The notes below the pieces were generated by a model. It was not told the origin of the DNA and made no database searches. It saw only the letters and a list, made by a program, of their open reading frames with translations. The position numbers and the translations under genes are program-made. Below, one piece after another: positions 1,442 to 50,177 of a stretch of DNA of 64,000 nucleotides. The DNA comes from Candidatus Faeciplasma pullistercoris. GTDB lineage: Bacteria > Bacillota > Clostridia > Oscillospirales > Ruminococcaceae. Positions within the stretch are counted from its first letter, which is position 1. Each line of letters starts with the position of its first letter. Location of the stretch: contig DVLL01000001.1 in NCBI GenBank assembly GCA_018715525.1, forward strand, positions 1 to 64,000, in the 5' to 3' direction.

Positions 1442-1452
1442 GTTCGTCCTCC

Positions 1453-4060: not shown

Positions 4061-7000
4061 TTATTGCCTCTCGCTTTTCCATAGATTCCCTCGTAAATCA
4101 ACTGGTATTTGTTGTAGTTGATTTCCTCAACACGTTTATTGAGAAGCAGGTATCGAAGCACTCTGTTCTTGATGTTTTCGTCAGTTAAAAGAACGTAACT
4201 ATCAAGATGGTCATAAACACGGCTGTGCCAATTTTTGATTGAAGCCATGTCCTTTTTGTCAATGCAATCACGAGTGATTTTAGTCTCGTTCTTATAGTCT
4301 TTTGCAAAGCGAATCGGGAGAGCCTCAAAGAGACCATTACAACTGATAAATTCTGCCAGTTTTGTGGCAAAGCTACCATTAACAGGAGCCTCACGTTCAA
4401 AACACGAGCACCAATCAACCATTGACTGAACAATGTCTTGCTTTTTGGAAGCGTTTATATCGGAACTGTTTATGATTTCTAACAAATCATCCAACTGAAA
4501 ACCTTCTTCCGCAGCAAGTCCTGTTTCATACTGAAAAACAAGTTCAACTGCCAACTGTCCTTTTATCACAGCAAGAGCGTAGTCGTCTGTGATAAGGTCG
4601 GTCTGATGATATTGTTCTTCGCTCTTGTCGATTTGAGTTAAAACAGCTTCGACCCAGTTGTTTTGATATACAACTGCAACACCCATAGGGAATCTGGATA
4701 TTTCTCTTATTTGACTATCATTAAGTCCCATAGAAAGACCTGCAATTTTGCAGTCCTCGTAATCGGGAAGCCTCATAATGATTTTTGTATTTGTGTTCTT
4801 TACAGCAGACACATCAACTGCTGTGGGAGACTGGTCAACGATAATAAAACCTTCTCCGTATGTACGCATTTCTGCAATGGCAGAGCTAATCATTTCTACG
4901 GATTTCGCCTGCACATTTGAACCTTCGCTACCGCCAGTAGGACTGCGCTTCAAAATGTTGTGTGCTTCTTCCATTACGGTTACATGACGAAGCGGTTGAT
5001 TTTCTTCGCTTGTACACATACGGTACTCATTCAATTTGAGTATCAGCACACCCATCAGTAAGCTCTTAGTTTCCAAGGAAGACACTCGGCTAAGGTCAAC
5101 TATAGTGTTTTGGTCAAACAGATATTCTTCATCAATATCATTAACACTACACAGAACTTGACCGGAAATGCCGTTGGTCAGAGACTTAACTCTCGTTACA
5201 AGCGCTCCGGTATAGTCGCCTTTGGAATCTGACGAGTACGAGGAAGAATTGATGATTTCGGGCAATGCTTCCAAAACATCATTAAATGTCGGGAACTTGC
5301 TATGACCGTTAGGAATGTATATGGAGTTTTCCAAATCCCAACCGCATTTTATATACGCTCTCTCAAACGACTCTTTGAGAATAGCGGGCATTGCTGCGTA
5401 TAGCGGCCAACAAGCGTTAAATATTTCAATCAATCTGTCGAGATGTTCAAGGACGTGTATTCCTTGGTTAAAACGGAACGGATTGATGTGAAGCATCGAG
5501 TAATATCGGGGGTTGGTGCAATAAACATGGATTCCAGGCAGCTTGCCATAGTAACGCTTATACTCGCCCTTGGCAGGTTCAACCACCAAAAAAGGAATCT
5601 TGTGTTCAATCATTTCATCCAAAATACGATATGTCGTATTGGATTTACCGGAACCCGTTGAGCCGGTGATAAAGCAGTGCGAACGAAAACTTTCAAGGTC
5701 AAGTTTGACTCTTGCAGTTTCTTTTTCGCCCATGTGGTAAACCTGTCCAAGTTCAACTTTTTTACCACGAGGAGCACCACTTGAAAATCTAACATTACGT
5801 CCAAACTCTGCCATATTTAGAACTGTTACACCGGGGACAGAGTGGCGTGGAAGTCCCATAATAAAGGGCATTTCATTGCCGCTTATTAAGCTGCAAGGAT
5901 TAACAGTCTGGCTTTCAACCTCAAAAAACTGGTCATCACCAGGGATAGAAAAACGAGGATGAATACAGTAACGCAGGTATTCCAAGAGTGCAGGAGTATT
6001 CTCTGTGTTATCCTGCTTCCACACATTGACATAAGAGTTTTCAACGCCGGAATCAAAGCCTGCCATCAAAGCCTTGTATGTACTTGCCGCAACAACGGAA
6101 GTTTGCACGTTTTCAGAAACGAAATAACAAGCAATGTCCCATAATCCAAAAGCTTCGCAGTTCTTAATGCGAGCAAGATGTTGGTCAATTTTTTCAAGGA
6201 TGTATTTTACGGACTTATTTTCGCTCGTTACGGTGATGGTACGGCTATCGCCGGTCGTATCTGTATCAGTCTCAGTTATGGTTTCGCCTTTGGTTTCAGA
6301 TGTTCCACGAGTTACTGCACTTGCCCAGGAGCTACCGGAACTATAACCAGTAGAGGTGCTGCTATTAAAACCGATTCCCAAAAAGCCAAACGAAGTGCCA
6401 TGACTACGAGAGGTGGAACGGCTATTAAAATGGCTCGTTGTATCAGTAAGGCTGTCATTAAGTGTTTTAGAAAAATTCTCACTCATACCTTTAGAAACAG
6501 CCTTGCTGTAGTTCTCACCATAGGAGAGCTGAGTGGAAGCAAAAGGAGAGAGACCGGAATAAATCTTTTGCAAACCTCGCTTGCGTTGTTCAAGGATTTC
6601 TTTATCTAAAGGTTCAGCAATAAATACTGCGGTGTATTCCGAACCCTTCATAGTATCAATAAATTTTTCGATGCCCTGGACAAAGCGTTCTTTGTCTTCG
6701 TCTCTTGTAGAGGGCACGATGGATACCGAAGAAACATTTTGACGAGTGCCAAAACGTCCACTCTTATTTATAGAACCCAAGACCTTTTGAACTTCTTCTT
6801 GGGGGATTGCTTGAATCTGACTTCCAGCGAAATTGCCTTTGAAGCTTTTTTCCAAAATAGCTTCTGCAGTAGAGGTGTTATCAACAGAACGCACACCAAT
6901 GTAAAATCCAAGTGCATTTCTTGTACTCTTGATTACAAGGAGACCTGCAGCTTGAATATTGAAGAAGGCACTATACACACTAATGAGCTTATCGTTAGCG

Positions 7001-7212
7001 TTTTCATCAACGTCGTAAACAATGCGTTCGATTTGATACAGACGAATATATTCATCGGACTTTTCAGCTTCATCAAGCTCGACCAACGGATAACAGTCCA
7101 GATTGATTAAATAATTCTTATTAACGAAAGCATCTGCATACAGCATCCCCTTTTCCAAGGCAGCATTAGCTTGTGCTTCATCTAATATAAGTTCAAATTT
7201 TTCGTTCTCCAT
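4057..7212 (-). CDS. Large HerA/DUF87-type P-loop ATPase
   Basis: 1051 residues from ATG at 7212, chosen because AGGAGG stands 6 nt upstream; an in-frame codon 7 positions earlier has no ribosome site. The N-terminal ~200 residues are unknown, followed by a Ser/Thr-rich low-complexity stretch (~240-330). The ATPase core has Walker A GSTGSGKS at ~517-524, then VEPAKGEYKRYYG, Walker B VTVMEEAH at ~746-751 and the HerA-like stretch IIVDQSPTAVDVSAVKNTNTK ending in IIMRLPDYEDC. HerA/FtsK/VirB4-class ATPases form hexameric pumps that move DNA or proteins. No NurA, Sir2 or relaxase partner is visible; the neighbours are Ig-like, transglutaminase-like and acidic proteins. It is probably the motor of an uncharacterised module carried by the mobile element. 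Confidence 0.85.
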   Translation of the reverse strand: MENEKFELILDEAQANAALEKGMLYADAFVNKNYLINLDCYPLVELDEAEKSDEYIRLYQIERIVYDVDENANDKLISVYSAFFNIQAAGLLVIKSTRNALGFYIGVRSVDNTSTAEAILEKSFKGNFAGSQIQAIPQEEVQKVLGSINKSGRFGTRQNVSSVSIVPSTRDEDKERFVQGIEKFIDTMKGSEYTAVFIAEPLDKEILEQRKRGLQKIYSGLSPFASTQLSYGENYSKAVSKGMSENFSKTLNDSLTDTTSHFNSRSTSRSHGTSFGFLGIGFNSSTSTGYSSGSSWASAVTRGTSETKGETITETDTDTTGDSRTITVTSENKSVKYILEKIDQHLARIKNCEAFGLWDIACYFVSENVQTSVVAASTYKALMAGFDSGVENSYVNVWKQDNTENTPALLEYLRYCIHPRFSIPGDDQFFEVESQTVNPCSLISGNEMPFIMGLPRHSVPGVTVLNMAEFGRNVRFSSGAPRGKKVELGQVYHMGEKETARVKLDLESFRSHCFITGSTGSGKSNTTYRILDEMIEHKIPFLVVEPAKGEYKRYYGKLPGIHVYCTNPRYYSMLHINPFRFNQGIHVLEHLDRLIEIFNACWPLYAAMPAILKESFERAYIKCGWDLENSIYIPNGHSKFPTFNDVLEALPEIINSSSYSSDSKGDYTGALVTRVKSLTNGISGQVLCSVNDIDEEYLFDQNTIVDLSRVSSLETKSLLMGVLILKLNEYRMCTSEENQPLRHVTVMEEAHNILKRSPTGGSEGSNVQAKSVEMISSAIAEMRTYGEGFIIVDQSPTAVDVSAVKNTNTKIIMRLPDYEDCKIAGLSMGLNDSQIREISRFPMGVAVVYQNNWVEAVLTQIDKSEEQYHQTDLITDDYALAVIKGQLAVELVFQYETGLAAEEGFQLDDLLEIINSSDINASKKQDIVQSMVDWCSCFEREAPVNGSFATKLAEFISCNGLFEALPIRFAKDYKNETKITRDCIDKKDMASIKNWHSRVYDHLDSYVLLTDENIKNRVLRYLLLNKRVEEINYNKYQLIYEGIYGKARGNK

Positions 7213-7253
7213 TAGTGTCCTCCTGTCGCACAAAGCCGTGCTGTATATGTTAA

Positions 7254-7292
7254 TTTGAAACGGTTCAATGCCTCACGGGACACCGTTTCAAA
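7254..7292. promoter_or_regulatory. 10-bp perfect inverted repeat before the ATPase gene
   Basis: TTTGAAACGG (7254-7263) and CCGTTTCAAA (7283-7292) are exact inverted copies separated by 19 nt, in the 90-nt gap between the XRE gene and the ATPase gene. No U-run follows on either strand, so a simple terminator is unlikely. It may be an operator or an RNA processing hairpin. Confidence 0.5.
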
Positions 7293-7302
7293 GCTGTTCT
7301 AA

Positions 7303-7779
7303 TTATTTTGCTATCCCACTAAGTGTTTTGATTACCTCATCATTTGAGATGGACTTGCATCTTGTATATTCCATCATTACAACCGCACGAATGGCTCCCT
7401 TAGCTTGTTCGTCTAAATCTTCGATGATTTCCGAAGACTTCTTGCCGAGAAAGGAGCTGATTTCATAGTCAGAATAATCGACCCCATCGTTAAAGCGAAT
7501 AATCAGCTCTTTCGGGAAAATGGACAACTGGCGAATCATTTTATGAGTTTTTTGATTGTGGTCATAGAAAAGAACTAACGACAAATACGTACTCCACGCC
7601 ATCCTTCTTACTTTTCTTTCGATAGCACTGTACGTTTGCCTGGAAACACCAATCAAATTGGCGAGTTCTTCCTGTGATATTTCAGCTTTGGTTCTTAGCA
7701 CGGTTAGGTTTGGGGTTAGCGTGGCTATAAAGCTGTCTTTTTCTTCATCAGTCAGCAACCATTTTGATTCAAATTCCAT
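7303..7779 (-). CDS. XRE-family helix-turn-helix regulator
   Basis: 158 residues, ATG at 7779 with GAGGAG upstream. Residues ~20-75 form a Cro/C1-type HTH: LRTKAEISQEELANLIGVSRQTYSAIE. The C-terminal half has no recognised domain and may dimerise or sense a signal. It is the first gene of the minus-strand operon that includes the HerA-type ATPase, so it most likely controls that operon, perhaps through the 19-bp repeat at 7816-7834 in its own upstream region or the inverted repeat at 7254-7292. Target sites are inference. Confidence 0.8.
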   Translation of the reverse strand: MEFESKWLLTDEEKDSFIATLTPNLTVLRTKAEISQEELANLIGVSRQTYSAIERKVRRMAWSTYLSLVLFYDHNQKTHKMIRQLSIFPKELIIRFNDGVDYSDYEISSFLGKKSSEIIEDLDEQAKGAIRAVVMMEYTRCKSISNDEVIKTLSGIAK

Positions 7780-7815
7780 CCAATAGCTCCTCTCTGTAAA
7801 ATTATCAAAATAAAT

Positions 7816-7834
7816 TTTCGTAAAGTATATAACT
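7816..7834 (+). repeat. 19-bp repeat, copy A (inverted partner at 9241-9259)
   Basis: TTTCGTAAAGTATATAACT here is identical to the reverse complement of 9241-9259. This copy lies upstream of the XRE gene and downstream of the integrase terminator. Together the copies flank the integrase gene. Confidence 0.85.
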
Positions 7835-7840
7835 CAACGA

Positions 7841-7886
7841 AAAAAAGACCGAAGTCTTTGTAATTACTAAGGTCTTCGGTCTTTTT
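7841..7886 (-). terminator. Rho-independent terminator of the integrase gene
   Basis: AAAAAGACCGAAG pairs with CTTCGGTCTTTTT across a ~19-nt loop, giving a strong stem with T-runs on both strands, just after the integrase stop. Confidence 0.85.
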
Positions 7887-7905
7887 CGACGATAATTTTG
7901 ACGGC

Positions 7906-9030
7906 TTATACAGAGAAATTCAATTTGTTCATATTGGAGCATTTTAGCTCAAAGGAAGAATGAACATAACGATTTAGCGTGATATTCACATTAGCGTGTC
8001 CAAGCACTTCACTCAAGCTTTTAATCTCAAACCCCACCTCTACGCAGCGAGTAGCAAAAGTGTGGCGGAGAGCATGGAAATTAGCATCGGAGATGCCACT
8101 ATCTTTTACATAAGATTTGAAACGGTTTTGCATTGTGCGAGGCTCAATATAACGGTCATTTCCCGTTAAAATATAGGCTTTTGGGTTTGCAATAAATTTC
8201 TGTGCTATATCTACAACAAATGTCGGTAACGGTATTTCACGCACTGAGCATTGGCTTTTAGGCTCCGTTATAACTATTTTTGTTTTTGAAAATGCTCCAT
8301 TCCCAGTATCTTGTATGCGTTGCATTGTCTTTCTGATTTTTAGAGTAGTCTGAGCGAGGTTAAAATCTTCCCACTGCAAAGCACACAGTTCACCAACACG
8401 GATTCCGGTATATAGGGACAAGAACACTCCAAACTTATACAAATCCATATCATCTATAAGAACACCGATTAAAGCATCTTGCTCTGCCTGTGTTAAAACA
8501 CGCATTTCTTTTTCCTTTTTCTTGATAGTGAGCTTTCCAAGATTGCATATAACAGGCAAGCCTTTATAACGAGCGTATTCCATTGTGCTTTTTACGATGG
8601 TTAAAATGTCGGTGACAGTTTTTGGTGCTAAGCCACCGGTATTATCTAAACGTCCTTCAGTAAGTTGAAATTCAACGAAGCTCTCAATGATATCGGTCGA
8701 AAGCATCGAAAGCTGATACTTTCCTAATTGTGGTTTGATGTGAGTATTGATTAAATGAGCATATCGAGCGTAAGTTGACTCTTTTGTGTTTAGTTGAGAT
8801 GAATGAAGCCATGAATCCAGAAGCTCATTGTATGTTAATGAACTTTTGGGTGTTGTTCTTTCTTTTTTGGGGCTGCTACGGTCATCGGTGAGTTTTTGTT
8901 TGACCTCACTGTATGTCTTTCCGTAAACATAAGCATACTTAGCTTTGTTTTGTGCATCATAGCTGCAAATATATCTTCCTTCCCATCTGCCGTCCTTTCT
9001 CTTGTAAATGTTTTCGCCTTTTCTTGGCAT
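7906..9030 (-). CDS. Tyrosine site-specific integrase
   Basis: 374 residues from ATG at 9030 (MPRKGENIYKRKDGRW), chosen because AGAGGAGG stands just upstream; the frame extends 68 codons further without a ribosome site. It has an N-terminal arm-binding region, a SAM-like core-binding domain (~70-160), and a catalytic domain with Arg in TGIRVGELCALQWEDF, His-x-x-Arg in HALRHTFATR, His in LGHANVNITLNRY and the final Tyr nucleophile. Size and order match Tn916-like/phage integrases. It catalyses excision and insertion of an element by strand exchange at att sites. It is distinct from the three serine recombinases at 15-20 kb, so the window carries two integration systems. No excisionase gene was identified. 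Confidence 0.92.
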   Translation of the reverse strand: MPRKGENIYKRKDGRWEGRYICSYDAQNKAKYAYVYGKTYSEVKQKLTDDRSSPKKERTTPKSSLTYNELLDSWLHSSQLNTKESTYARYAHLINTHIKPQLGKYQLSMLSTDIIESFVEFQLTEGRLDNTGGLAPKTVTDILTIVKSTMEYARYKGLPVICNLGKLTIKKKEKEMRVLTQAEQDALIGVLIDDMDLYKFGVFLSLYTGIRVGELCALQWEDFNLAQTTLKIRKTMQRIQDTGNGAFSKTKIVITEPKSQCSVREIPLPTFVVDIAQKFIANPKAYILTGNDRYIEPRTMQNRFKSYVKDSGISDANFHALRHTFATRCVEVGFEIKSLSEVLGHANVNITLNRYVHSSFELKCSNMNKLNFSV

Positions 9031-9112
9031 AGTTATTACCTCCTCTCTGAATGATGTTGACGGAGATTTTGACGGCGAATAAGAATCGAAATATCGCAAA
9101 TCAAGGGGTTTC

Positions 9113-9215
9113 CGTGTAAAATTCGCTATCATAAAGTCGATTTCGTAAATATTTTTCGACCTTTTTCTCGTATATATTGACAAATTCGGCAACATCGTGT
9201 ATAATTTTACACGAT
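9113..9215. promoter_or_regulatory. Operator-like palindrome and extra half-site at the integrase control region
   Basis: ATCGTGTA (9194-9201) and TACACGAT (9208-9215) form a palindrome covering the -10 box of the plus-strand promoter. CGTGTAAAATT at 9113-9123 repeats one arm of it (reverse complement of 9203-9213) on the integrase side. The layout fits a repressor controlling divergent transcription; the binder is not known. Confidence 0.5.
9177..9205 (+). promoter_or_regulatory. Consensus sigma-A promoter for a small RNA
   Basis: TTGACA (9177-9182), 17-nt spacer, TATAAT (9200-9205): a perfect consensus pair on the plus strand with no plus-strand gene downstream before a terminator. Transcription would start near 9212. 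Confidence 0.75.
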
Positions 9216-9301
9216 ACTTTTCGCAAAGTGTCATACTTCAAGTTATATACTTTACGAAATAAACGACGATTTAGTGGGCTGAAAATGCCCGCTTTTTTAT
9301 T
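9212..9301 (+). ncRNA. Candidate ~85-90-nt small RNA
   Basis: Bounded by the consensus promoter at 9177-9205 and a terminator hairpin GTGGGC-TGAAAAT-GCCCGC followed by six T (about 9274-9298). It contains one copy of the 19-bp repeat (9241-9259). It holds no convincing ORF. The 3' end touches the stop codon of the converging SLOG gene, so an antisense effect on that mRNA end is possible. Confidence 0.5.
9241..9259 (-). repeat. 19-bp repeat, copy B (inverted partner at 7816-7834)
   Basis: AGTTATATACTTTACGAAA is the exact reverse complement of copy A, placing the two in inverted orientation around the tyrosine integrase gene. The shorter string TTTCGTAAA also occurs at about 9141-9149. Confidence 0.85.
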
Positions 9302-11298: not shown

Positions 11299-11346
11299 GA
11301 CCGCAAAGCGTTCGGCATAATTCCCGAAGTTTTGCGGTCGTTTTCA
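11299..11346 (+). terminator. Rho-independent terminator
   Basis: GACCGCAAA pairs with TTTGCGGTC with an inner TTCGG/CCGAA stem, then GTTTTCATTT. Confidence 0.75.
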
Positions 11347-11390
11347 TTTATAATATAGGTAAAAAACAAAAAATGGAGGATATTACGCCT

Positions 11391-12803
11391 ATGCAGCAAT
11401 TCATTAGTGGCTCTTTCAAGCAAATTGAAAAGCCGCAATCCGTTCATCCCCCGTCGATTCCGGTGGACTTGTCTCAGTACGATGAGGAGTATATTACATA
11501 CTGCATCGAGCAGGAGCAAAGCATCAGCGAATTGGAGGCAGGGTTACACACCAACGACGACCCTGCGGAAATCGCAAAGAAAGCACTCGTAACAGCGTGT
11601 GCGTTTTACGATGCAGATTGGGCAGGTGTTATCGAGCTTGACCTGGAACTCAACATTTGGGCTTCAAGTTGGTGGCATAACATCGACCCTGCCGTTAAGG
11701 AACTGGAAAAGATGCAGGAGTTTGAAAACCTTATGGTTATGCCCAGCATCATCGAAGCAATCAAAAAGCAGAAGCCCATCATCTTTTCTGATGTTGAGGA
11801 TATTGCGAAAACCTCACCTAAAGAATACCAAGTCTATAAGCGGCTTGAAGTTCATTCCGTTATGGCTGTGCCTTTCGGACCCAAGCCTATGGGCTTCCTT
11901 GTTGTCCGAAATCTCAAAAAGTATCACAACCGGACAAGCACTCTCAATACGCTTGCTTACGTTATTCATCGTGCGATTGCACAGAAGAATACTATGGAAA
12001 GGGTCAGAATGGCTCTTACGCCGGATGAAATCAAGACCGACAATGACGTGATAATTAACTTCTTCGGTGGTATGGAAATCACCACATCTGCAGGTGTATG
12101 GAAAGAACAGGATTTTAACTCTCCCAAAAGCAGCCGTGCAGTTGCTTACATTATGATGCACAGAAAGAAAGCACACTCGCCGTTGGCGATTGCCGATGCC
12201 TTATACCCCGAAGATGGCTCAGACATCGACACTATCAATAAGAACATTCGTGGTTATATATACCGCTTTAGAAAGTCGTTTGAGCCAATTTGCAAAAGCA
12301 AACTGATTGAATATACCACAAACGGCTATAGATTAAGCCCATCAGCGAACGTGATGAGCGACCTGCAGAAGTTTGAAAAGCTCTGGAATCAGACACGGAA
12401 GGACATTCCCATTCCGCAAAAAGTACACGCCTTGAAACACGCTATCAAGCTGTATAAGGGGCACGTCCTGGGAGCTGCCTGTGATGACCATTGGATTGTA
12501 GGAACGGCGACAGAATACAAGATGAAGTACATCGCTATGGTGGACGAGCTATTGACCATTTTCTCCGAGTTTGAGGACTACGACGGTATTCATCATTTTG
12601 CATCAAAGGCGGTGAGCCTTATTCCCGAAAACGTCAAAGCTCAGTATTGGCTTGTCTATTCCATTTACCATTCCGGTGTGGTAGCTCTCGCCAAGAGGGA
12701 GATTGAAAAGGCAAAATGCCGTCTGACTTCGGAGGAATTTGATACTCTCCAGAAGTTCATTTGCAAGGATAACTCACTTCCATACGGACAGCTTTTTGAG
12801 TAA
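11391..12803 (+). CDS. GAF plus winged-helix/BTAD (SARP-like) regulator
   Basis: 470 residues from ATG at 11391; an ATG six codons earlier overlaps the GGAGG and lacks its own ribosome site. Residues ~60-195 resemble a GAF sensor domain (KKALVTACAFYDADWAGVIELD ... MAVPFGPKPMGFLVVRN). Residues ~210-310 are an OmpR-like winged helix (INFFGGMEITTSAG, HSPLAIADALYPEDG). Residues ~315-465 are helical, with the pattern of a bacterial transcriptional activator domain (BTAD). This order makes a signal-responsive DNA-binding regulator. It ends at a strong terminator 84 nt before five iterated repeats, which could be its binding sites, as SARP-class regulators bind spaced direct repeats (inference). Confidence 0.75.
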   Translation: MQQFISGSFKQIEKPQSVHPPSIPVDLSQYDEEYITYCIEQEQSISELEAGLHTNDDPAEIAKKALVTACAFYDADWAGVIELDLELNIWASSWWHNIDPAVKELEKMQEFENLMVMPSIIEAIKKQKPIIFSDVEDIAKTSPKEYQVYKRLEVHSVMAVPFGPKPMGFLVVRNLKKYHNRTSTLNTLAYVIHRAIAQKNTMERVRMALTPDEIKTDNDVIINFFGGMEITTSAGVWKEQDFNSPKSSRAVAYIMMHRKKAHSPLAIADALYPEDGSDIDTINKNIRGYIYRFRKSFEPICKSKLIEYTTNGYRLSPSANVMSDLQKFEKLWNQTRKDIPIPQKVHALKHAIKLYKGHVLGAACDDHWIVGTATEYKMKYIAMVDELLTIFSEFEDYDGIHHFASKAVSLIPENVKAQYWLVYSIYHSGVVALAKREIEKAKCRLTSEEFDTLQKFICKDNSLPYGQLFE

Positions 12804-12824
12804 AAAACAAGCTGTTTTCTCGAT

Positions 12825-12868
12825 AGAGGGTACGAACCCCTAAAAAGGTTCGTACCCTCTATTTTTTT
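12825..12868 (+). terminator. Strong Rho-independent terminator
   Basis: A perfect 14-bp stem, AGAGGGTACGAACC with GGTTCGTACCCTCT, loop of 8, then seven T. Confidence 0.92.
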
Positions 12869-12886
12869 GTCGAAAAACGCCCATTT

Positions 12887-13007
12887 GACTCTCGTGCGAC
12901 ACTATAAACGACTCTCGTGCGACACCTCTTTTTCTCATTTGACTCTCGTGCGACGCAAACGGGGGTCATTTGACTCTCGTGCGACTCCCATACGACTTTC
13001 GTGCGAC
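12887..13007 (+). repeat. Five iterated 14-bp repeats (iteron-like)
   Basis: GACTCTCGTGCGAC occurs exactly at 12887, 12910, 12941 and 12972, and once with a single change (GACTTTCGTGCGAC) at 12994. Start-to-start distances are 23, 31, 31 and 22 bp, close to two and three DNA helical turns, so the copies face roughly the same side of the helix. Three copies are preceded by CATTT. No coding frame explains them. Possible roles are a replication or transfer origin, or an activator-binding array. Confidence 0.85.
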
Positions 13008-13088
13008 ACCCGTAAGGTAGCCTTTAAGGGCAGAAGCTCTTAAAACTAAATTACGGGGGTTTACATTTTGAAGAAAAACATCCTTATG

Positions 13089-13148
13089 AGGGGTGCTTTT
13101 GCAAAACGCAGAAGCACTCCTTATTTTTTTACCCTCTGCCGTAGGGTA
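13089..13148 (+). promoter_or_regulatory. Attenuator-like leader of the sigma-like gene
   Basis: AGGGGTGCTT (13089-13098) pairs with AAGCACTCCT (13112-13121) and is followed by a seven-T run, forming a terminator inside the leader. A second hairpin TACCCT/AGGGTA (13130-13148) starts in the T-run. A short frame beginning TTG at 13068 (MKKNILMRGAFAKRR...) reads through it. Together this looks like transcription attenuation, possibly with a leader peptide. Confidence 0.55.
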
Positions 13149-13225
13149 CAGCGTTCCCGTGCTCCTCCGCTTGGATTTTTGACTTTAACCCAAAATCAAA
13201 AATTCAAAATCACGGAGGAACCAAT

Positions 13226-13699
13226 ATGTACAAGAAAGACAGCCTTTATTCCATTAACAAGAAGAATCCCGATGCCATCGTTTACAAGTTCGCTACCGGC
13301 GAGCAGCACGAGGTCACTCGTGCAGACTTTCCAAGCGAGGAAGAATTTCTCGCTTTTAAGGCGTGGTCGGACGAGGACCTCCACACCGAGGACAAGCGTG
13401 ACGTGCTGGCGGGCATTCGCCAAGTTTCCATTGACGACCTTTCCGAAGCTGCTATCGCTGTGCCTGCCATCGACGTTGTGATGGATCGGCAACAGCAGAG
13501 AGCCGACCAGCACCGTAAAGCATCCGATATGGTCGTAAAGCTCAAGGACAAGCTGACAGAAACACAGTTCCGCAGACTTTGGATGTATTACGTTGATGAA
13601 ATGTCTGAGGAAGAGATTGCAAGCGTTGAGGGTTCAAGCCAACAGGCAATTTCGCTCTCCTTGCTTGCCGCAGAGAAAAAAATAAAAAAATTTTTCTGA
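13226..13699 (+). CDS. Sigma-70 region-4-like protein of the mobile element
   Basis: 157 residues, ATG with CGGAGG upstream; chosen over an overlapping frame at 13068 that lacks a ribosome site and a protein-like composition. The N-terminal ~60 residues are typical of small sigma-like proteins of conjugative elements (YSINKKNPDAIVYKF). The C-terminal end carries an HTH: TETQFRRLWMYYVDEMSEEEIASVEGSSQQAISLSLLAAEKKIKKFF, the pattern of sigma region 4. No sigma region 2 is visible, so it is probably an accessory regulator rather than a complete sigma factor. Confidence 0.75.
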   Translation: MYKKDSLYSINKKNPDAIVYKFATGEQHEVTRADFPSEEEFLAFKAWSDEDLHTEDKRDVLAGIRQVSIDDLSEAAIAVPAIDVVMDRQQQRADQHRKASDMVVKLKDKLTETQFRRLWMYYVDEMSEEEIASVEGSSQQAISLSLLAAEKKIKKFF

Positions 13700-13739
13700 T
13701 TTGAGCCAAAACACCTTGTAAAAACGCCCCCAAATTTAT

Positions 13740-14147
13740 GTTAGGTGAAGGGACAAATCATAAAGCTCCTTTCTCCATATCGGACGGTAACAGTTTAATC
13801 CCTGCCGATATGAAGGCTCCTTGACAACTTCATAGCTTTAATCAGATAACGAACTCTCTTGTAAGAGCCGAGCCAGAGGATACGCCAAGACCACCGCAAG
13901 GTGCGAGCGAGAAATATCAGCTCTGGGAAAGTCGGGTAGCTCCCGATTGGCGACGAGGACGGAGAGGTGCTACTCCCCACCAGGGACAGTCCGAGCGTGC
14001 TAACAACCGTCGCAGGCAATCCGGTGAGAGGTCGTGTAAGTTAATCACGAGCGTGGAAGCGAGTGCCAAGAGCGTAAGGCAGTCTGAATGAGGCATTAAC
14101 GATAAAACCTAACGAGGCGGCTTTGGCTTTTGTTAGAGCCGCCTTTT
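13740..14147 (+). ncRNA. Candidate ~400-nt ornate structured RNA
   Basis: No protein-like frame fits this segment, but nested complementary pairs do: GTTAGGT 13740-13746 with ACCTAAC 14107-14113 (closes the whole domain); TAAAGCT 13761-13767 with AGCTTTA 13834-13840; CATATCGG 13776-13783 with CCGATATG 13805-13812; GCCAGAG 13872-13878 with CTCTGG 13921-13926; CACC-GCAA-GGTG 13892-13903 (GNRA tetraloop); TCGGG/CCCGA 13932-13946; GCGACG 13950-13955 with CGTCGC 14008-14013; GTTAAT 14040-14045 with ATTAAC 14095-14100; TGCC/GGCA 14064-14081. None of them cross. A terminator ends it. It is not RNase P, tmRNA, a tRNA or a group II domain V that I can recognise. Confidence 0.7.
14116..14147 (+). terminator. 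Terminator of the structured RNA
   Basis: GGCGGCT (14116-14122) pairs with AGCCGCC (14137-14143), followed by TTTT. Confidence 0.85.
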
Positions 14148-14183
14148 ACATATCCGAACAGGAGTGTAGAAAGGAACAGCTTT

Positions 14184-14543
14184 ATGAAAGACACTTGGTT
14201 ATATCGCCGTGGTGACATTTACCTCGTTGACCTTGGTAAGCACTTCGGCTCCGAGCAAGGGGGCTGCAGACCTGTTCTTCTTATACAGAATAATGTAGGA
14301 AACTACTACGGTCCCACGCTAATCGTAGCCCCCATTACATCTCGGTATCTCAAAAAGGCGAAACAGCCTACCCATTTTGCCCTTGTAGGGGTTGATAATC
14401 TCGTCAGCCCGTCTGTCGTACTTACAGAACAGATTCTTACCATTGATAAATCAAGGGTAATTAAATATGTAGGAAAGATTTCCGACGAGCAGATGCGTTC
14501 TGTTGACAAGGCGATTAAGGTCAGCCTTGGACTTGACGTTTGA
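14184..14543 (+). CDS. PemK/MazF-family toxin-like endoribonuclease
   Basis: 119 residues from ATG at 14184, with AAAGGA upstream (the frame opens earlier, inside the terminator of the RNA gene). MazF fold motifs: YRRGDIYLVDLG, GGCRPVLLIQNNVGN, TLIVAPITSR, PSVVLTEQILTIDKSRV. Family members cut mRNA at short sites and are normally held by a small antitoxin. No classical MazE-type antitoxin is next to it; the 75-aa protein downstream is a candidate partner only by position. It may help to maintain the element. Confidence 0.88.
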   Translation: MKDTWLYRRGDIYLVDLGKHFGSEQGGCRPVLLIQNNVGNYYGPTLIVAPITSRYLKKAKQPTHFALVGVDNLVSPSVVLTEQILTIDKSRVIKYVGKISDEQMRSVDKAIKVSLGLDV

Positions 14544-14616
14544 TGCTCGTTTTCTTTTCCCACAGCATAAAAAGGAAAGTTCTGGCTAATAATAAGTATC
14601 GAAAGGCGGTGCAAGT

Positions 14617-14844
14617 ATGATTGATAAAACCCAGACTCACAAAGATTTGCTCGCTTCTCTCGTTGACATCCGTGATGTCAAGATAGACCGTTCGCTCCCC
14701 ATTGAGGAAAGAGTGAAGTCCTATGTAGAGCAAGTAAAGAACCCTTATATGTTCAAAGTCGGCAACACCGTTGTCCGTGTATCATACGCAGACACCAACC
14801 GAACGATGAACGACAACTTCGTGAATATGATAGCAGCTATGTGA
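14617..14844 (+). CDS. Small conserved protein found near serine recombinases (75 aa)
   Basis: ATG preceded by GAAAGGCGGTG. Sequence features: a DIRDVKIDRSLPIEERVKSYVEQVKNPY segment, then a beta-rich GNTVVRVSYADTNRTMNDNF. I recall similar small proteins (annotated as domains of unknown function) beside large serine recombinases in Clostridia, but cannot verify the family here. It may be a recombination directionality factor or an antitoxin; neither is shown. Confidence 0.6.
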   Translation: MIDKTQTHKDLLASLVDIRDVKIDRSLPIEERVKSYVEQVKNPYMFKVGNTVVRVSYADTNRTMNDNFVNMIAAM

Positions 14845-14881
14845 TGGAAAAAATTACACGGCTGCTTCTTTTCCGACAAAC

Positions 14882-14910
14882 TGGATTTTCGCAGAAAGAT
14901 ATAGTATAAT
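14882..14910 (+). promoter_or_regulatory. Possible promoter of the recombinase operon
   Basis: TATAAT at 14905-14910 with a weak -35 (TGGATT, 17-nt spacer), 77 nt before the first recombinase ATG. Confidence 0.4.
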
Positions 14911-14986
14911 AATGACGGACAAAAAATCAGCGAAGCTCCGTTTGCTGGAGAGGCTTGACCTCAAAAATAAAAGGAGTGGCGCAGTT

Positions 14987-16720
14987 ATGCAAAAACTGAA
15001 TGATAAACTATATCGTGCCGCCATCTACCTAAGATTATCGCAGGAAGATGGCGACATTTCTGTTTCTGGCAAAAACGAGAGTAATAGTATCTCAACTCAG
15101 CGTGACCTCATTCACGCCTACCTGCAGAAACAGCCCGACATTATGTACGTTACAGAGTTCTGTGACGATGGTTACACCGGAACCAATTTTGACAGACCGG
15201 ACTTTGAAAAGATGATGACCGCCGTTCGTGAGAAAAAGGTCGATTGCATTGTTGTAAAAGACCTCTCCCGTTTCGGTCGTGACTACATCGAAGCAGGCAA
15301 ATACATTCAAAAGATTTTCCCGATGCTCGGTATTCGCTTCATAGCAATCAATGACGGCTATGACTCTGCTGACACCGGAAATCAGACTAACGATTTCGTT
15401 CTTCCTTTCAAGAACCTAATCAACGATTCCTACTGCCGAGACATTTCTATCAAGTCTCGTACCAATCTGGAAGTGAAGCGAAGGAACGGAGAGTTCGTAA
15501 ACAACTTTGCTGTTTATGGCTATATGCGTTCTCCCGACGATAAGCACAAGCTGATTGTCGATGAAGAAGCTGCCGTTGTCGTTCGTAACATCTTTAACTG
15601 GAAACAGGACGGATGGAACGCTCTGCAGATAGCCAACCACCTTAACAAGCTCCACGTTCCGTCTCCGATGGAATATAAGAGAAAGTGCGGTCAGAATTAT
15701 CGCACGGGCTTCAAGACCAAAACCACCGCACAATGGAGTGCCGTTGCGGTTCTCCGTATTCTCAAAAATGCGGTCTATACTGGTGTGTTGGAGCAAGGCA
15801 AGACCACGACCCCAAACTATAAAGTAAAAATGAGGGTTTACAAGGATGAGTCCAAATGGGCACGAGTTGAAAACGCTCACGAGGCTATCATCACCCCTGC
15901 ACAGTTTGAACTTGTTCAGCAGGTGCTCGGAATGGACACCTGCAGAGCTGAGAGCAACGATGAAATCTATCCGTTCTCCGGTTTGATTTACTGTGCCGAT
16001 TGTCAAAACCCTATGCTCCACCGCACAGCGACCACAAGCGGCAAAAAGTATCACTATTATGTGTGTTCCGGTAACAAGCGTGACAAGAATAGCTGTACGA
16101 CCCATAATATTAGATGCGACTTGGTTGAATCCGTAGTCCTCGCAACCGTTCAAGCTCACATCAATCTGGCAATCGACATTGACGATGCTATGAGCCAAAT
16201 GGAAGCTCTCGATTGGGAGCAGAGAGAGGTTCGTAAAATCAATGCTCAGATTTCCGCTATGGAGCTTGACGTGGAGAAATATAGCCGTATCAAGTTAGAA
16301 CTTTACGAGGACTTGAAAGGCGGTTTGATTTCCAAAGAGGAGTATCATTCTTTCAAAGAAGATTATTACCTCCGTATCCAATCCATCAAGCAGCAGGTTT
16401 CCCACCTTGTAAGTCAGCGCAACGCCATTGAGGGCGGCTTGACGAGTGCCCAGGGGTGGTTCGCACAGTTCCGACAGTATGAAAACATAGAAAAGCTGAC
16501 CCGCAACACCATTGTCAGCTTGATAGAGCGTGTTGAGGTTGACGACAACAAAGACATTAACGTAAAGTTCCGACACGCTGACCAATTTGCCGCAGCTCTT
16601 GAATATCTGGAACTGCAGAAGCAAAGGCAAAGCAAAATAATCACGATAAAGGAGGCTGGCTGGTATGGCAAGAACATCCCGCAAACAGCAAATTCCGTCG
16701 CTCAGTCAGTCTCGTACTGA
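14987..16720 (+). CDS. Large serine recombinase 1
   Basis: 577 residues from ATG at 14987 with AAAGGAG ~10 nt upstream; the frame extends 25 codons further without a good site. Resolvase domain ~8-160 with the catalytic Ser18 in YLRLSQED, Arg in KDLSRFGRDY; 'recombinase' DNA-binding domain ~170-300 (GYMRSPDDKHKLIVDEEA); zinc ribbon at CADCQNPMLHR...CSGNKRDKNSC; then a long coiled coil. Large serine recombinases integrate and excise elements at short att sites without host factors. It overlaps the second recombinase gene by 56 nt, so the two are translationally linked. Confidence 0.95.
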   Translation: MQKLNDKLYRAAIYLRLSQEDGDISVSGKNESNSISTQRDLIHAYLQKQPDIMYVTEFCDDGYTGTNFDRPDFEKMMTAVREKKVDCIVVKDLSRFGRDYIEAGKYIQKIFPMLGIRFIAINDGYDSADTGNQTNDFVLPFKNLINDSYCRDISIKSRTNLEVKRRNGEFVNNFAVYGYMRSPDDKHKLIVDEEAAVVVRNIFNWKQDGWNALQIANHLNKLHVPSPMEYKRKCGQNYRTGFKTKTTAQWSAVAVLRILKNAVYTGVLEQGKTTTPNYKVKMRVYKDESKWARVENAHEAIITPAQFELVQQVLGMDTCRAESNDEIYPFSGLIYCADCQNPMLHRTATTSGKKYHYYVCSGNKRDKNSCTTHNIRCDLVESVVLATVQAHINLAIDIDDAMSQMEALDWEQREVRKINAQISAMELDVEKYSRIKLELYEDLKGGLISKEEYHSFKEDYYLRIQSIKQQVSHLVSQRNAIEGGLTSAQGWFAQFRQYENIEKLTRNTIVSLIERVEVDDNKDINVKFRHADQFAAALEYLELQKQRQSKIITIKEAGWYGKNIPQTANSVAQSVSY

Positions 16721-18368
16721 GCAAACAAAACTCTATAATGTAGCAATTTACGCTCGTCTGTCCGTAGAGGATAACGGAAAGGACTCCGACTCTATCGAAA
16801 GTCAGATTGAGTATTTGGAGGACTATATCGCAAACGACCCCACAATGCGTAAGGCTGCCGTGTTCATCGACAACGGCTTCACCGGCACAAACTTTATGAG
16901 ACCCGAATTTCAGCGTATGATAGATGCGGCTCGTCTCGGTGACATCAACTGTGTTGTGGTAAAAGACCTTTCTCGTCTTGGCAGAAACTATGTTGAGACA
17001 GGAGAGTTCTTGGAAAAGGTCTGTCCGTTCATCGGTCTGCGATTTATCGCCGTAAACGACAACTACGACTCCGAGGGTGTAACAAACAACTCCCATCTGG
17101 CAGCATCTCTCTCCAATATCATCAACGATTTCTACGCAAGAGACATTTCCCGTAAAGTCTTTTCTGCCTTGAAAACGAAGATGGAGAACGGCGAGTATAT
17201 CGGTGCTTGGGAAAAGTATGGCTATCTTAAAGACCCCGATAATAAAAACAAGCTCATCGTGAACCCCGAAACTGCTCCTATCGTCAAGCAGATTTTCCTT
17301 TGGAGAAGTGAAGGTATGAGCTATATGGGTATCAATAAGAAACTCAACGAAATGGGCGTACTCTCACCTGGGCAGTACAAAGCGGAGCGTGGTATTGTTA
17401 CCAACAATAATAAGAAATCTCGTGTTATCCTTTGGAACAAGCACGTCGTTACGGACATTTTGAAAGACATTACCTATATCGGGCATCTGGCACAGCGTAA
17501 GACCACTCAATGCCTTTATGCAGGCGTTCAATACAGCCGTGTGGATGAAAATGATTGGGTGATTGCATACAACACCCACGAACCGATTATCGACCAGGAC
17601 TTGTTTGACAAGGTACAGGAAATCAATCGTGCCACCTTGGAGAGAACGAAAGCCAACAGCGGCAAGTACGACCATCTTCCCAAGGCAAAGAACATCTACG
17701 GTGCAAAGCTCGTCTGTGCCGATTGCGGTGCGAGAATTAAGCTCCATCGTTCTTTCAGCACAAAGAAAGATAAGGTGTATTTTACCTTTAATTGTCCGAC
17801 CTACGGAGAGCACGGCAAAACCGGATGCACAAGTAGAGTGAAGCGCAAGGCGGAACTGGACGAGGCGGTTGTCCATTCAATCCGAACTCAAATGGATATG
17901 TTTATGGACTCTGCTCATATCATCAAAAGTCTGCTTGCACAAAAACAGGCTATCAACAAGGGGGCTTCTCGTAAGAGACAAAAGACCTCCTTGAATGTCA
18001 AAATCAAAAATCTTCGCTCTGCAATATCCACGCTCTACGTTGATATGAAAGACGGGCTTTTGACCGACGAAGAATATCTGATGCAGAAAGAAAAGTACCA
18101 AGCCGAGATAGCCGAGCTTGAACATACTTTAGGCGAGCTGAACCGTGACGATAGCGACACGGAGGAACAGCTCATCGGTACAAAACGCTGGGCGGCTATC
18201 GTTGAGGAATATTCCGAAGCGACAGAGCTAACCGAAGGTATGCTGAACGCTTGTGTGGAGCTGATAAGGGTTCACGCAGACGGTTCACTTGAAATCACGT
18301 TTAACTATATGGAGGAGTTCAAAGAGCTGCTTCAAACGACAGAACGGCTTAGAAAGGAGGTGGCATAA
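16665..18368 (+). CDS. Large serine recombinase 2
   Basis: 567 residues starting inside the end of gene 1, with AAAGGAGG upstream. Catalytic Ser33 in YARLSVED, Arg in KDLSRLGRNY, recombinase domain with YGYLKDPDNKNKLIVNPETA, zinc ribbon CADCGARIKLHR...CPTYGEHGKTGC, and a C-terminal coiled coil (~440-500). It is clearly related to its neighbours but not a recent duplicate. Triplets of serine recombinases are known at the end of several Firmicutes integrative and conjugative elements, where all three may be needed for recombination. Confidence 0.95.
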   Translation: MARTSRKQQIPSLSQSRTEQTKLYNVAIYARLSVEDNGKDSDSIESQIEYLEDYIANDPTMRKAAVFIDNGFTGTNFMRPEFQRMIDAARLGDINCVVVKDLSRLGRNYVETGEFLEKVCPFIGLRFIAVNDNYDSEGVTNNSHLAASLSNIINDFYARDISRKVFSALKTKMENGEYIGAWEKYGYLKDPDNKNKLIVNPETAPIVKQIFLWRSEGMSYMGINKKLNEMGVLSPGQYKAERGIVTNNNKKSRVILWNKHVVTDILKDITYIGHLAQRKTTQCLYAGVQYSRVDENDWVIAYNTHEPIIDQDLFDKVQEINRATLERTKANSGKYDHLPKAKNIYGAKLVCADCGARIKLHRSFSTKKDKVYFTFNCPTYGEHGKTGCTSRVKRKAELDEAVVHSIRTQMDMFMDSAHIIKSLLAQKQAINKGASRKRQKTSLNVKIKNLRSAISTLYVDMKDGLLTDEEYLMQKEKYQAEIAELEHTLGELNRDDSDTEEQLIGTKRWAAIVEEYSEATELTEGMLNACVELIRVHADGSLEITFNYMEEFKELLQTTERLRKEVA

Positions 18369-19939
18369 TGCCGAAAGCAGTAGCAATCTATTTGAGACTT
18401 TCCCAAGAGGATGTCGATGTTCGGCGTAATGCCGCCAAGGACGAGAGCAACAGTATCTCGGCACAGCGTAATCTGATAACGAGACACCTCGACCAAAACC
18501 CCGAACTTGCAGAGCTTCCTCGCTTGGAGTTCTGCGACGACGGCTTCTCCGGTACGAATTTTGAGAGACCCGAATTTCAGCGTATGATTGAGCTTGCCAA
18601 GCAAGGTGAAATCTGCTGTATCGTCGTAAAAGACCTCTCCCGTTTTGGTCGTGACTATCTGGAGGTTGGCGACTACCTGGAGCACATCTTTCCGTTCCTC
18701 GGTATCCGCTTCAAGTCCATCAACGACCATTACGACAGCAAGAACCACGACGGCAAGACTATCGGTATGGACGTGGCGTTCCGTAACCTCGTCTATGACT
18801 ATTACAGCAAAGACCTCTCCTCTAAAGTCAAGACAGCGATGCGCTCCAAACAGGAAAAGGGCGAGTTTATCACTTGCTTTACTTACGGCTATAAACCCTC
18901 ACCGGAGAATAAGCATAAGATGATTATTGACGAGCCTGCAGCAGAGATTGTCCGTGAGATTTTCGATGCGGTTATTGCAGGCAAGACCACGAGTGAGATT
19001 GCCGCAGACCTCAACACAAGAGGCGTTCCTACGCCACAGGCTCACAAGGGCGTGAAGCGTAGATTCGAGACCATCCCTCAATGGACTCACCCTCGTATCG
19101 TCTATATGATACGCAATATTAAGTACACGGGCGTAATGACCAACCATACACGAGAGAGCCGTCATATCCGAGATAAGAACCAAAGACGAGTTCCCGTAGA
19201 GGAATGGATTATCCACCCCGATGCACACGAAGCTATTATCCCTCGTGACAAATGGGAGCTTGCGAACGAAATGCTCCGCAACCCCAAGAAAGTAAAAAAG
19301 GCTGTCCTTGAACAGCCCGACAGAGTTTATTATTGTGCTCATTGTGGCAGAAAGCTCCGCAAGACCTACGGTTCAGACCAGTATTATTCCTGTGTTTCTT
19401 CCAAGTATCAACAAGACAGCGTGTGTTCCGACATTCGCCTCAAAAGAAGCGAAATGGAAGATATTCTCGTTGAAGCACTTCGGGCACAGATAAACTTTAT
19501 TAAGCAGAACACACCTACCGAAAAGAAGGAAAAGCGTTCTGCAAGCGTGGAGTGCTACAAGGCAATCACGCAAATCGAAAAAGAGATTGCACAGCTTCCC
19601 AATAAGAAACTGGAACGCTATGAAGCCTATCGCTCCGGTGAAATCAGCCGTGAGGATTTCATCAAATCAAAGGATGCACTTTCTGTAAAAGCCGACGAAC
19701 TCACGGCAAAGAAGGAACAGCTTGAAAAGGAATACCAAGCTCTGCTCAAAGCCAAACAGCAAGAGGCTGAAACGGAGTCAGAGGTTGCCCAGGCTGAACA
19801 GGTTCTTGCCGACTTCGATGCAGGTTTGCGTGAGCATCTGTACGAAGCAATCGAGCGAGTAATCGTAACCTCAAACGAGCAAATCGAGATTGAATGGGTA
19901 TTTGCAGACATCTTCACTCAGAAGGAAGAATACTGCTGA
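18368..19939 (+). CDS. Large serine recombinase 3
   Basis: 523 residues; its ATG overlaps the TAA of gene 2 by one base. Catalytic Ser12 in YLRLSQED, Arg in KDLSRFGRDY, recombinase domain with YGYKPSPENKHKMIIDEPA, zinc ribbon CAHCGRKLRK...CVSSKYQQDSVC and a Lys/Glu-rich coiled coil (~400-480). It is the terminal gene of the element; the stop lies ~150 bp from the junction with spoVT, the usual place for an element integrase. Confidence 0.95.
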   Translation: MPKAVAIYLRLSQEDVDVRRNAAKDESNSISAQRNLITRHLDQNPELAELPRLEFCDDGFSGTNFERPEFQRMIELAKQGEICCIVVKDLSRFGRDYLEVGDYLEHIFPFLGIRFKSINDHYDSKNHDGKTIGMDVAFRNLVYDYYSKDLSSKVKTAMRSKQEKGEFITCFTYGYKPSPENKHKMIIDEPAAEIVREIFDAVIAGKTTSEIAADLNTRGVPTPQAHKGVKRRFETIPQWTHPRIVYMIRNIKYTGVMTNHTRESRHIRDKNQRRVPVEEWIIHPDAHEAIIPRDKWELANEMLRNPKKVKKAVLEQPDRVYYCAHCGRKLRKTYGSDQYYSCVSSKYQQDSVCSDIRLKRSEMEDILVEALRAQINFIKQNTPTEKKEKRSASVECYKAITQIEKEIAQLPNKKLERYEAYRSGEISREDFIKSKDALSVKADELTAKKEQLEKEYQALLKAKQQEAETESEVAQAEQVLADFDAGLREHLYEAIERVIVTSNEQIEIEWVFADIFTQKEEYC

Positions 19940-20079: not shown

Positions 20080-20601
20080 TTGACACGTCGAGATGATTTA
20101 GGCAGGGTCGTCATCCCGAAGGAAATACGCCGCACCATGCGTATAAGGGAGGGCGACCCTCTTGAGATATATACAAACAGCGACGGCGAGGTAATATTCA
20201 AGAAATATTCGCCGATAAACGAGATGTCCCGAAGCGCAGGCTCGGCGGCAGACGTGATACACAAGCTCGGCGGCACGCCGGTCGTGATATTCGACAGGGA
20301 TCATGTGGTTGCGGTGTCCGGAATGCAGCGCAGGGAGTACGCTGAAAGAAGGATATCGCCCGCGCTCGAGGAGCTGCTCGAAAGGCGAAAAAGCTGGCTT
20401 TATGACGGCGACGGAAAGCCGATACTGCCGGTGGAGGGAGTGCAAAAAAACGCGCTTGCGATAGCTCCGATAATTGCTTCCGGAGACATTGCCGGCGCTG
20501 TATGCTTTATGGCCGGAGACACTCCCTCAAAAGGTACCCAGCTTCAGCTTACGCTCGCTCAGACGGCGGCAATGTTCCTCGCAAGGCAGCTTGAGGAATA
20601 G
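20080..20601 (+). pseudogene. spoVT: spoVT interrupted at its 5' end by the element
   Basis: Stage V sporulation protein T, an AbrB-type DNA-binding regulator with a GAF-like C-terminal domain that controls forespore sigma-G genes. The AbrB half (DDLGRVVIPKEIRRTMRIREGDPLEI) and the GAF-like half (to AMFLARQLEE) are intact, and the body matches the usual ~180-residue protein. However, the first ~10 codons, promoter and ribosome site are replaced by element DNA. A TTG at 20080 keeps frame (xTRRDDLGR) but has no Shine-Dalgarno and gives one residue fewer than the normal VRRIDDLGR. It is therefore probably silent while the element is present, and restored by precise excision. Confidence 0.85.
20084..20097. 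mobile_element. Right junction (attR) of the mobile element in spoVT
   Basis: To the right, the DNA codes for DDLGRVVIPKEIRR, the invariant start of the SpoVT AbrB domain. To the left, the expected MKATGIVRRI codons and ribosome site are absent and element DNA (recombinase operon) begins. The break lies at or just before GATGATTTAGG (20087-20097). TCGAGA occurs at the break (20084-20089) and also at 20003-20008. The left junction lies outside the window. The exact core dinucleotide cannot be set without the empty site. Confidence 0.75.
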
Positions 20602-49975: not shown

Positions 49976-50048
49976 ACAGGCGGCAGTATAGTGATTGCCG
50001 CTTCTTTTCGTTGCCGTTTTGGTACAGAAGGAAAATAAAACAACGCTT

Positions 50049-50143
50049 TTTGCGACTGACGGATAGATGCGGAGCACCGCAGAGGAACAAAGGGCGTGAT
50101 TTTCAGGGCTGAAGGATTGACCCTGAGCCGACCGTCTGGGCAC
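50049..50143 (+). ncRNA. ZTP (pfl) riboswitch aptamer
   Basis: Shows the pfl-motif marks: GACTGACGG at 50054-50062 near the 5' end, a hairpin CAGGG...CCCTG, then AGCCGACCGTCTGGGCA ending at ~50142. GACGG pairs with CCGTC, replacing the more usual GGCG/CGCC pair, which supports the fold. ZTP riboswitches sense the AICAR derivative ZTP and turn on purine and one-carbon genes. It precedes purE directly. Confidence 0.85.
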
Positions 50144-50177
50144 ACTTGGGTTTTTGGCTGCAAGTGCGCCCTTTTGC
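50138..50177 (+). terminator. Riboswitch-controlled terminator before purE
   Basis: GGGCACACTTG pairs with CAAGTGCGCCC, followed by TTTTGCGTTTTT. Its 5' arm includes the CTGGGCA of the aptamer, so ligand binding should prevent it from forming. Confidence 0.88.

Follow-up and report, generated by a model that had tools for sequence, protein, structure and literature searches.

A divergent pemK-type RNA in a mobile element of Candidatus Faeciplasma pullistercoris and its relation to the Tn916 antiterminator canT

Introduction

Rfam family RF02913, the pemK RNA motif, reportedly goes back to a 2017 paper. Its family name comes from a PemK gene; its covariance model has 61 positions and treats the core of the RNA as an insert. 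BoxA is the name of a block of the rRNA operons that binds NusB and S10. Antitermination in rRNA operons is described as needing NusB and NusE on BoxA (PMC4807359).

An antiterminator of the mobile element Tn916 was described in 2024. In that study, canT of Tn916 is a cis-acting RNA between orf8 and xis that causes processive antitermination in an orientation-specific manner; it lets RNA polymerase pass terminators, and the Tn916 genes are read after the element has left the chromosome (PMC11658703). No other Tn916 gene is needed, several foreign terminators in a row are passed, and a canT mutant was not complemented when canT was supplied elsewhere; the predicted fold was one that the authors had difficulty interpreting (PMC11658703). 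The put RNA of phage HK022, the EAR element of the B. subtilis eps operon and lambda nut likewise modify the polymerase in cis as part of the nascent transcript (PMC11658703).

Here we consider a 64,000-nt stretch of the Candidatus Faeciplasma pullistercoris genome (contig DVLL01000001.1, positions 1 to 64,000; 'the window'). An earlier note on its letters had proposed a structured RNA of about 400 nt in a mobile element at 13740-14147 for which no known class could be named. By sequence comparison, this RNA is a divergent subtype ('type B') of pemK RNA with seven members found, and we consider it likely, by analogy, that it is a cis-acting antiterminator working like canT. The comparison brings together an RNA family named after a neighbour gene, a proven antiterminator and an rRNA-type boxA, which were separate in the literature searched.

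Fold and extent of the RNA

For 13740-14147 the + strand had a folding energy of -138.5 kcal/mol (z -2.66), and none of 100 shuffles was equally stable; the minus strand was unremarkable (z -0.99, 17 of 100 shuffles). The nested helices that had been proposed are present at their coordinates in the + strand fold, as are the GCAA-loop hairpin, which also has comparative support, and the terminator directly 3′ of the RNA (Table 1). The outermost helix GTTAGGT/ACCTAAC, which would join the two ends, is perfect in the window; it remains a candidate helix, because by-eye inspection of the three readable close relatives (L146, L130 and L179) gave a possible counterpart in L146 only. The RNA proper probably runs from ~13740 to ~14090.

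Table 1. Coordinates of the RNA, its parts and the surrounding element in the window
Feature	Position	Strand	Evidence
Strong terminator-like hairpin, upstream of sigma-like gene	12822..12863	+	17-pair stem and T run
Second strong terminator-like hairpin, upstream of sigma-like gene	13086..13124	+	17-pair stem and T run
Sigma-70 region-4-like gene, commonest upstream neighbour type	13226..13699	+	Sigma70_r4_2, E 4.7e-5, 23.4 bits (cut-off 25.7)
Hairpin H1	13747..13773	+	fold; type B cells 87.5% paired, 0 double changes; weak support
Hairpin H2, directly 5′ of boxA, conserved apical GGTAACAGTTTAATCCC	13776..13812	+	covariation
rrn-type boxA (GCTCCTTGACAACTTCATA)	13816..13834	+	match to rRNA-operon block; in place in 50/67 representatives
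Hairpin with GCAA loop, conserved CGCCAAGAC and GAGCGA on its two sides	13892..13903	+	half-swapping test
Hairpin TCGGG-TAGC-TCCCGA	13932..13946	+	alignment A5; missing in 2/6 type B sequences
Helix P1 (13978-13981 with 14023-14026) around core CAGTCCGAGCG...CCGTCGCAGGCAAT (13987-14020)	13978..14026	+	invariant in type B
Hairpin P2, loop TAAGTTAAT	14032..14050	+	5/5 pairs doubly changed, 100% paired (seven sequences)
Hairpin P3	14061..14084	+	3/6 pairs doubly changed, 97.1% of cells paired (seven sequences)
Intrinsic terminator directly after RNA	14114..14147	+	-23.8 kcal/mol, z -6.8
PemK/MazF-like toxin gene	14184..14543	+	Pfam PemK_toxin, E 1.7e-31
DUF6870 gene	14617..14844	+	Pfam, E 3.8e-26
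Three large serine recombinase genes (14912-16720, 16665-18368, 18368-19939)	14912..19939	+	Pfam Resolvase, Recombinase
Element right end, inside spoVT codon 11	20080..20093	+	spoVT split between contigs C6 and C24

Relation to pemK RNAs

At the gathering score, the Rfam comparison named in the earlier note gave no match on the segment; the one match in the whole 64-kb window was a ZMP/ZTP riboswitch (50042-50148, 56.2 bits), far from the RNA. At E up to 10 the segment gave three chance-level matches (E 3.4, 7.9 and 8.1), far below the cut-offs and none of them pemK. Group I and II introns, RNase P, tmRNA, 6S, HEARO and IS605-orfB RNAs were likewise absent from the matches at this threshold. 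The large fold, the location in a mobile element and a 3′ end that looked intron-like at first reading could be taken as signs of a decayed group II intron or another ribozyme remnant; no intron, HEARO or IS605 model is among the three matches, however, and the RNA is conserved, with covariation, in other elements, so that we give this origin practically no weight.

A search with the segment in 99 genomes found matches in eight, the window's own genome and seven others. All eight places outside the window stop at window position 14020, and all (L002-L009) carry an RF02913 pemK RNA of 51.8 to 62.5 bits. The idea of a truncation, or of a piece inserted at 14020, was dropped; relatives with the same 3′ half revealed the subtype described below. 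The whole segment gave no blastn match among plasmid and phage records. Near the canonical pemK RNA of one of the eight loci (L008, 1658-1709) lies a Na+ riboswitch aptamer (RF03071).

The pattern of the shared core occurs in at least 118 stretches of the genome collection, and in 22 of viral contigs; loci found in this way share the exact core pattern, and the conservation of their core is therefore not independent evidence. Altogether 150 places were collected: 136 with at least 300 nt upstream and 133 with both flanks, the latter reduced to 67 representatives at 85% identity. The place in a gammaproteobacterial record (L042) may be a chance match.

A profile built from 63 canonical representatives, leaving out the window and its closest kin, gave a single match in the window, at 13819-14020 (E 3.3e-22). 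With the core that had been used for selection removed, a profile of the 5′ domain alone still matched 13744-13981 (E 7.2e-15); the same profile found nothing in the reversed window. As far as sequence can tell, the window RNA is almost certainly homologous to the pemK/canT group. The earlier impression of an RNA without known relatives is not supported, given the canonical-only profile, the pemK RNAs at all eight outside places and the coincidence of the Tn916 copy with canT (see below). What stands is that the mobile element carries a large structured RNA which Rfam misses; as for a new class, we find a new subtype of a known kind.

The window RNA resembles RF02913 in the homologous core and in the three-helix layout, and it likewise has a PemK gene downstream. 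Compared with RF02913, the consensus start AUAAUGAUACU, the AGAAC loop of P2 and the GGGGUGAAAUUCCC of P3 differ in the window, with the order P1-P2-P3 kept. None of the seven type B members, the window and six other loci, reached the RF02913 gathering score of 34.8 bits in cmscan. Because the window RNA lies below this cut-off and departs from these parts of the consensus, it is not filed in RF02913; the present model misses one subtype. The window RNA is also larger than the model: a block that matches boxA begins ~200 nt upstream, and both boxA and the 5′ domain are outside the 61 modelled positions.

A divergent subtype

Besides the window, type B RNA was found at L146, L130, L138 (with a near-copy, L141), L179, L036 and L180. 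With one mismatch at most, the pattern of the type B 3′ half turned up in two of the 394 genomes searched within the order, one of them the window's own. The P2 loop and P3 of this subtype are unlike those of canonical pemK RNAs; the core at 13987-14020 is common to the window, the canonical RNAs and canT of Tn916.

The covariation that the earlier note proposed to look for in homologues is seen in P2, P3 and H2, in a sample of seven sequences for P1-P3 and five for H2. In the seven-sequence alignment, which was fitted to its structure, 99.2% of the cells of the model structure are paired, against 30-43% in slid structures, and eight pairs are doubly changed against a shuffled mean of 3.7; one of five measures, that of further pair types, was no higher than in shuffles. 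All six pairs of H2 are formed in each of its five sequences (100% paired), and four of the six are changed on both sides; this number was reached by 27 of 500 shuffles and exceeded by the +3-slid version, with five, while the percentage paired was equalled by none of the slid versions. The inner pairs of P3 have gaps in two of the seven sequences. The pairs of P1 and the core are invariant and thus carry no covariation information. The weak support for H1 is due in part to a misaligned row of the type B alignment; the single inner pair tested pairs in one of four sequences.

Exchanging halves between sequences identified the GCAA-type hairpin as a stem whose sequence varies. Both flanks were located in 42 of 69 sequences, and in these the mean stem was 4.8 bp, against 2.7 bp after the exchange.

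A model of type B (R1) found all eight canonical loci not used in its building, canT of Tn916 among them (48 bits, E 1.1e-12). It scored 151 bits in the window's own genome and 51 in the next best; at E up to 0.001 it matched 23 of the 245 genomes sampled in the class, the own genome included, which suggests antitermination control of transfer genes in many Bacillota mobile elements.

Correspondence with canT of Tn916

Ten plasmid records, including pCF10, match one of the loci with a canonical pemK RNA (L005) at 100% identity over 401 nt; some of these records annotate a Tn916 excisionase. In the Tn916-type element of pCF10 (L150) the RF02913 match occupies +283 to +383 after the orf8-equivalent gene. 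Two canT mutants bear on this position: the inactivating canT(delta162) deletes +229 to +390 after orf8, and canT(S3) is a 3-nt mutation that replaces ATA at +283 to +285 (PMC11658703). The triplet at +283 in pCF10 is ATA, and published and present coordinates therefore agree. Thus placed, the RF02913 match falls inside canT; delta162 takes out all of it and S3 alters its first three consensus positions.

The published fragments can be read against the same scale. The active 452-bp canT fragment begins at +126 (PMC11658703), within the boxA block, which is cut after GTTCT. Activity was kept by some shorter fragments, S3 had little effect in one 400-bp fragment, and a 291-nt fragment that includes what the mutants had deleted or changed was inactive (PMC11658703); the pemK core is therefore insufficient alone. 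On these data boxA may be dispensable for canT activity; taken together, the published fragments neither prove nor exclude a role of boxA. The words 'pemK' and 'boxA' do not occur in the main text of that study (PMC11658703), and among the papers listed in literature searches none ties pemK RNA/RF02913 or boxA to canT or Tn916.

Like the window RNA, canT is sited between a sigma-like/HTH gene pair and recombination genes, starts with a boxA-like block and continues with the core CAGTCCGAGCGTG..CCGTCGCAGGCAAT and the order P1-P3; in both elements a terminator stands at the other end. The two RNAs are ~37% identical over the aligned region, gaps counted. They differ in the P2 loop, in P3 and in the presence of H1 and H2 ahead of boxA in the window RNA; the recombinases of the window element are of the serine type, unlike those of Tn916. 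Upstream of the sigma-like gene in pCF10 (L150, 1195-1424) there is a second cis-regulatory RNA, Rfam SQ2397 (RF03532).

A boxA block upstream of the core

Among the 136 loci whose upstream sequence spans at least 300 nt, 120 have the motif TTGA[AC]AA there, usually 180-280 nt ahead of the core's end; in mononucleotide shuffles the motif was found in 6.8%. It forms part of a longer block; where this is in place among the representatives, G(-5) is found in 92%, C(-2) in 90% and Y(-1) in 96%. Where several copies of the motif occurred, the one following two pyrimidines was preferred, a choice that slightly favours C(-2) and Y(-1) and leaves G(-5) unaffected. Of the 17 of 67 representatives that lack TTGA[AC]AA in place, four have TTGATAA.

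Of seven loci fetched for the block, five, from four genomes with RNAs of this group, have it (e.g. GCACCTTGAAAACTGAATA) in the 16S-23S spacer or immediately ahead of 23S; these rRNA-operon loci were chosen for having the block in several copies. The other two (L176 and L177) come from the window's own genome, where the look-up gave near-matches, and had no adjoining rRNA. The rRNA-operon boxA of the Nus complex has the block GYWCYTTGAMAA in common with the window RNA; unlike it, the window RNA has a large structured domain following boxA and lies in a mobile element.

TTGACA is also the consensus of a -35 box, and a weak Pxis promoter is mentioned in the Tn916 study (PMC11658703); one could therefore read the block as the -35 of a Pxis-like promoter, with the RNA starting downstream of it. 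This we regard as rather improbable. A -10-like hexamer at a spacing of 16-18 from the block was found in none of 50 representatives, the conserved positions G(-5), C(-2) and Y(-1) are not part of the hexamer, and the block recurs in rRNA operons. Moreover, two type B loci, L036 and L180, have a TTGACx-17-TATAAT promoter further upstream, at a distance of 138 and 63 nt from the block, respectively, so that the block would be transcribed; a strong promoter no more than 250 nt ahead of the block was seen in four of 57 sequences.

With the block read as boxA, we lean slightly towards a part for boxA and Nus factors in the mechanism. To our knowledge, put RNA needs no boxA.

Neighbouring genes and terminators

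Among 63 upstream proteins (E up to 0.01), Sigma70_r4_2 was found in 34 and HTH_16 in 10. Downstream (n = 64) there were HTH_17 (21), resolvase (11), Tn916-Xis (10), PemK (7), TnpW (4) and phage integrase (3) domains; the classes overlap, and the genes were called mechanically, some of them spuriously. PemK is thus a minority neighbour of this RNA group. A script detected a terminator in the 260 nt that follow the core in 10 of 69 sequences, against four of 138 shuffles, and strong ones followed the core in the window and L138 only.

These counts bear on the possibility that the RNA is a cis-acting leader of the PemK gene, i.e. a ligand- or protein-sensing attenuator that switches its own terminator at 14114-14147. 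In the window the RNA, the terminator and the PemK gene are consecutive, and Rfam, besides naming RF02913 after this gene, types the family as Cis-reg. A conserved terminator, as the expression platform of a riboswitch or attenuator would have, is not what the 10 of 69 sequences present, and this number speaks against a general attenuator; PemK follows in seven of 64 cases, and canT of Tn916 works on several foreign terminators in series (PMC11658703). Such a leader is unlikely.

A free small RNA of ~400 nt, ending at 14147 and acting in trans, would account for the compact fold and for the strong terminator right after it. The terminator is not conserved, however, canT provided in trans did not rescue the Tn916 mutant (PMC11658703), and the promoter scan of the + strand at 11321-15189 listed no sigma-70-like promoter; we hold a trans-acting RNA to be very unlikely.

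Proposed mechanism

In the canT-like mechanism that we favour, transcription would come from upstream, and the nascent RNA would present boxA together with the folded domain (H1, H2, the GCAA hairpin and P1-P3). Host NusB and S10 would bind boxA as they do in rRNA operons; the boxA complex and the folded domain would remain with the polymerase during elongation and render it terminator-resistant. RNA polymerase could then pass the terminator at 14114-14147 and read pemK and the three recombinase genes; after excision and closure of the circle it would cross the joint, pass the left-end terminator and reach the ParB-like gene and further genes. Points that count against this reading are the lack of a listed sigma-70-like promoter on the + strand at 11321-15189, the divergent P2 loop and P3 of type B, and the representatives that lack TTGA[AC]AA in place. 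The covarying helices and the boxA block offer a testable answer to the question of how a canT-like RNA works.

One could extend this to the whole group. RF02913, canT and the window RNA may form one widespread class of mobile-element antiterminators that opens with a copy of the host boxA of rRNA operons, through which it borrows the ribosomal Nus machinery, the window RNA being a second structural subtype with H2 directly before boxA; here, flanking terminators and a promoter formed by circularisation only would couple expression to excision. We see the chances of this wider reading as evenly balanced.

The mobile element

Behind the two terminator-like hairpins, the window has, in order, the sigma-like gene and the RNA with its terminator, then the genes for PemK, DUF6870 and three serine recombinases, and the right end within spoVT. 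This sporulation gene (window 20089-20601 and L202) is split near its start by the element; in a sister species it is uninterrupted at the insertion point. On contig C24 (L202) element DNA, with a gene for a protein with ParB domains, follows immediately after the start of spoVT, and before this gene there is a hairpin (-25.6 kcal/mol, then TTTT; z -6.6), which takes the place of terminator T1 in Tn916. The terminator pattern scan did not list this left-end terminator, perhaps owing to its loop limit and a bulge. The placement is like that of canT, with a sigma-like gene on one side, recombination genes on the other and a terminator at the other end, the two ends being on separate contigs that are linked by the split spoVT.

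Joining of the ends after excision would bring a TTGACA of the right end to a 17-nt spacing from a left-end TATAAT, making a perfect promoter towards the ParB-like gene. Tn4451 has a similar junction promoter. The junction promoter may drive the left-end genes by itself, which would be a complication for the antitermination model or an addition to it; transcripts that start there would lack this RNA. A boxA-like CCTTGAAAAC (L202, ~1442-1465, minus strand) follows closely on the putative junction promoter, ahead of the left-end terminator.

Between the two terminator-like hairpins upstream of the sigma-like gene, at 12887-13007, we observed five copies of GACTCTCGTGCGAC, one of them mismatched, within ~120 nt, with 0.02 expected in the window; iterons or an operator are possible interpretations. 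Elsewhere in the window, at 4057-9234, the minus strand has genes for a tyrosine integrase (7906-9234) and a HerA-like protein (4057-7233), which suggest a second element, nested or neighbouring.
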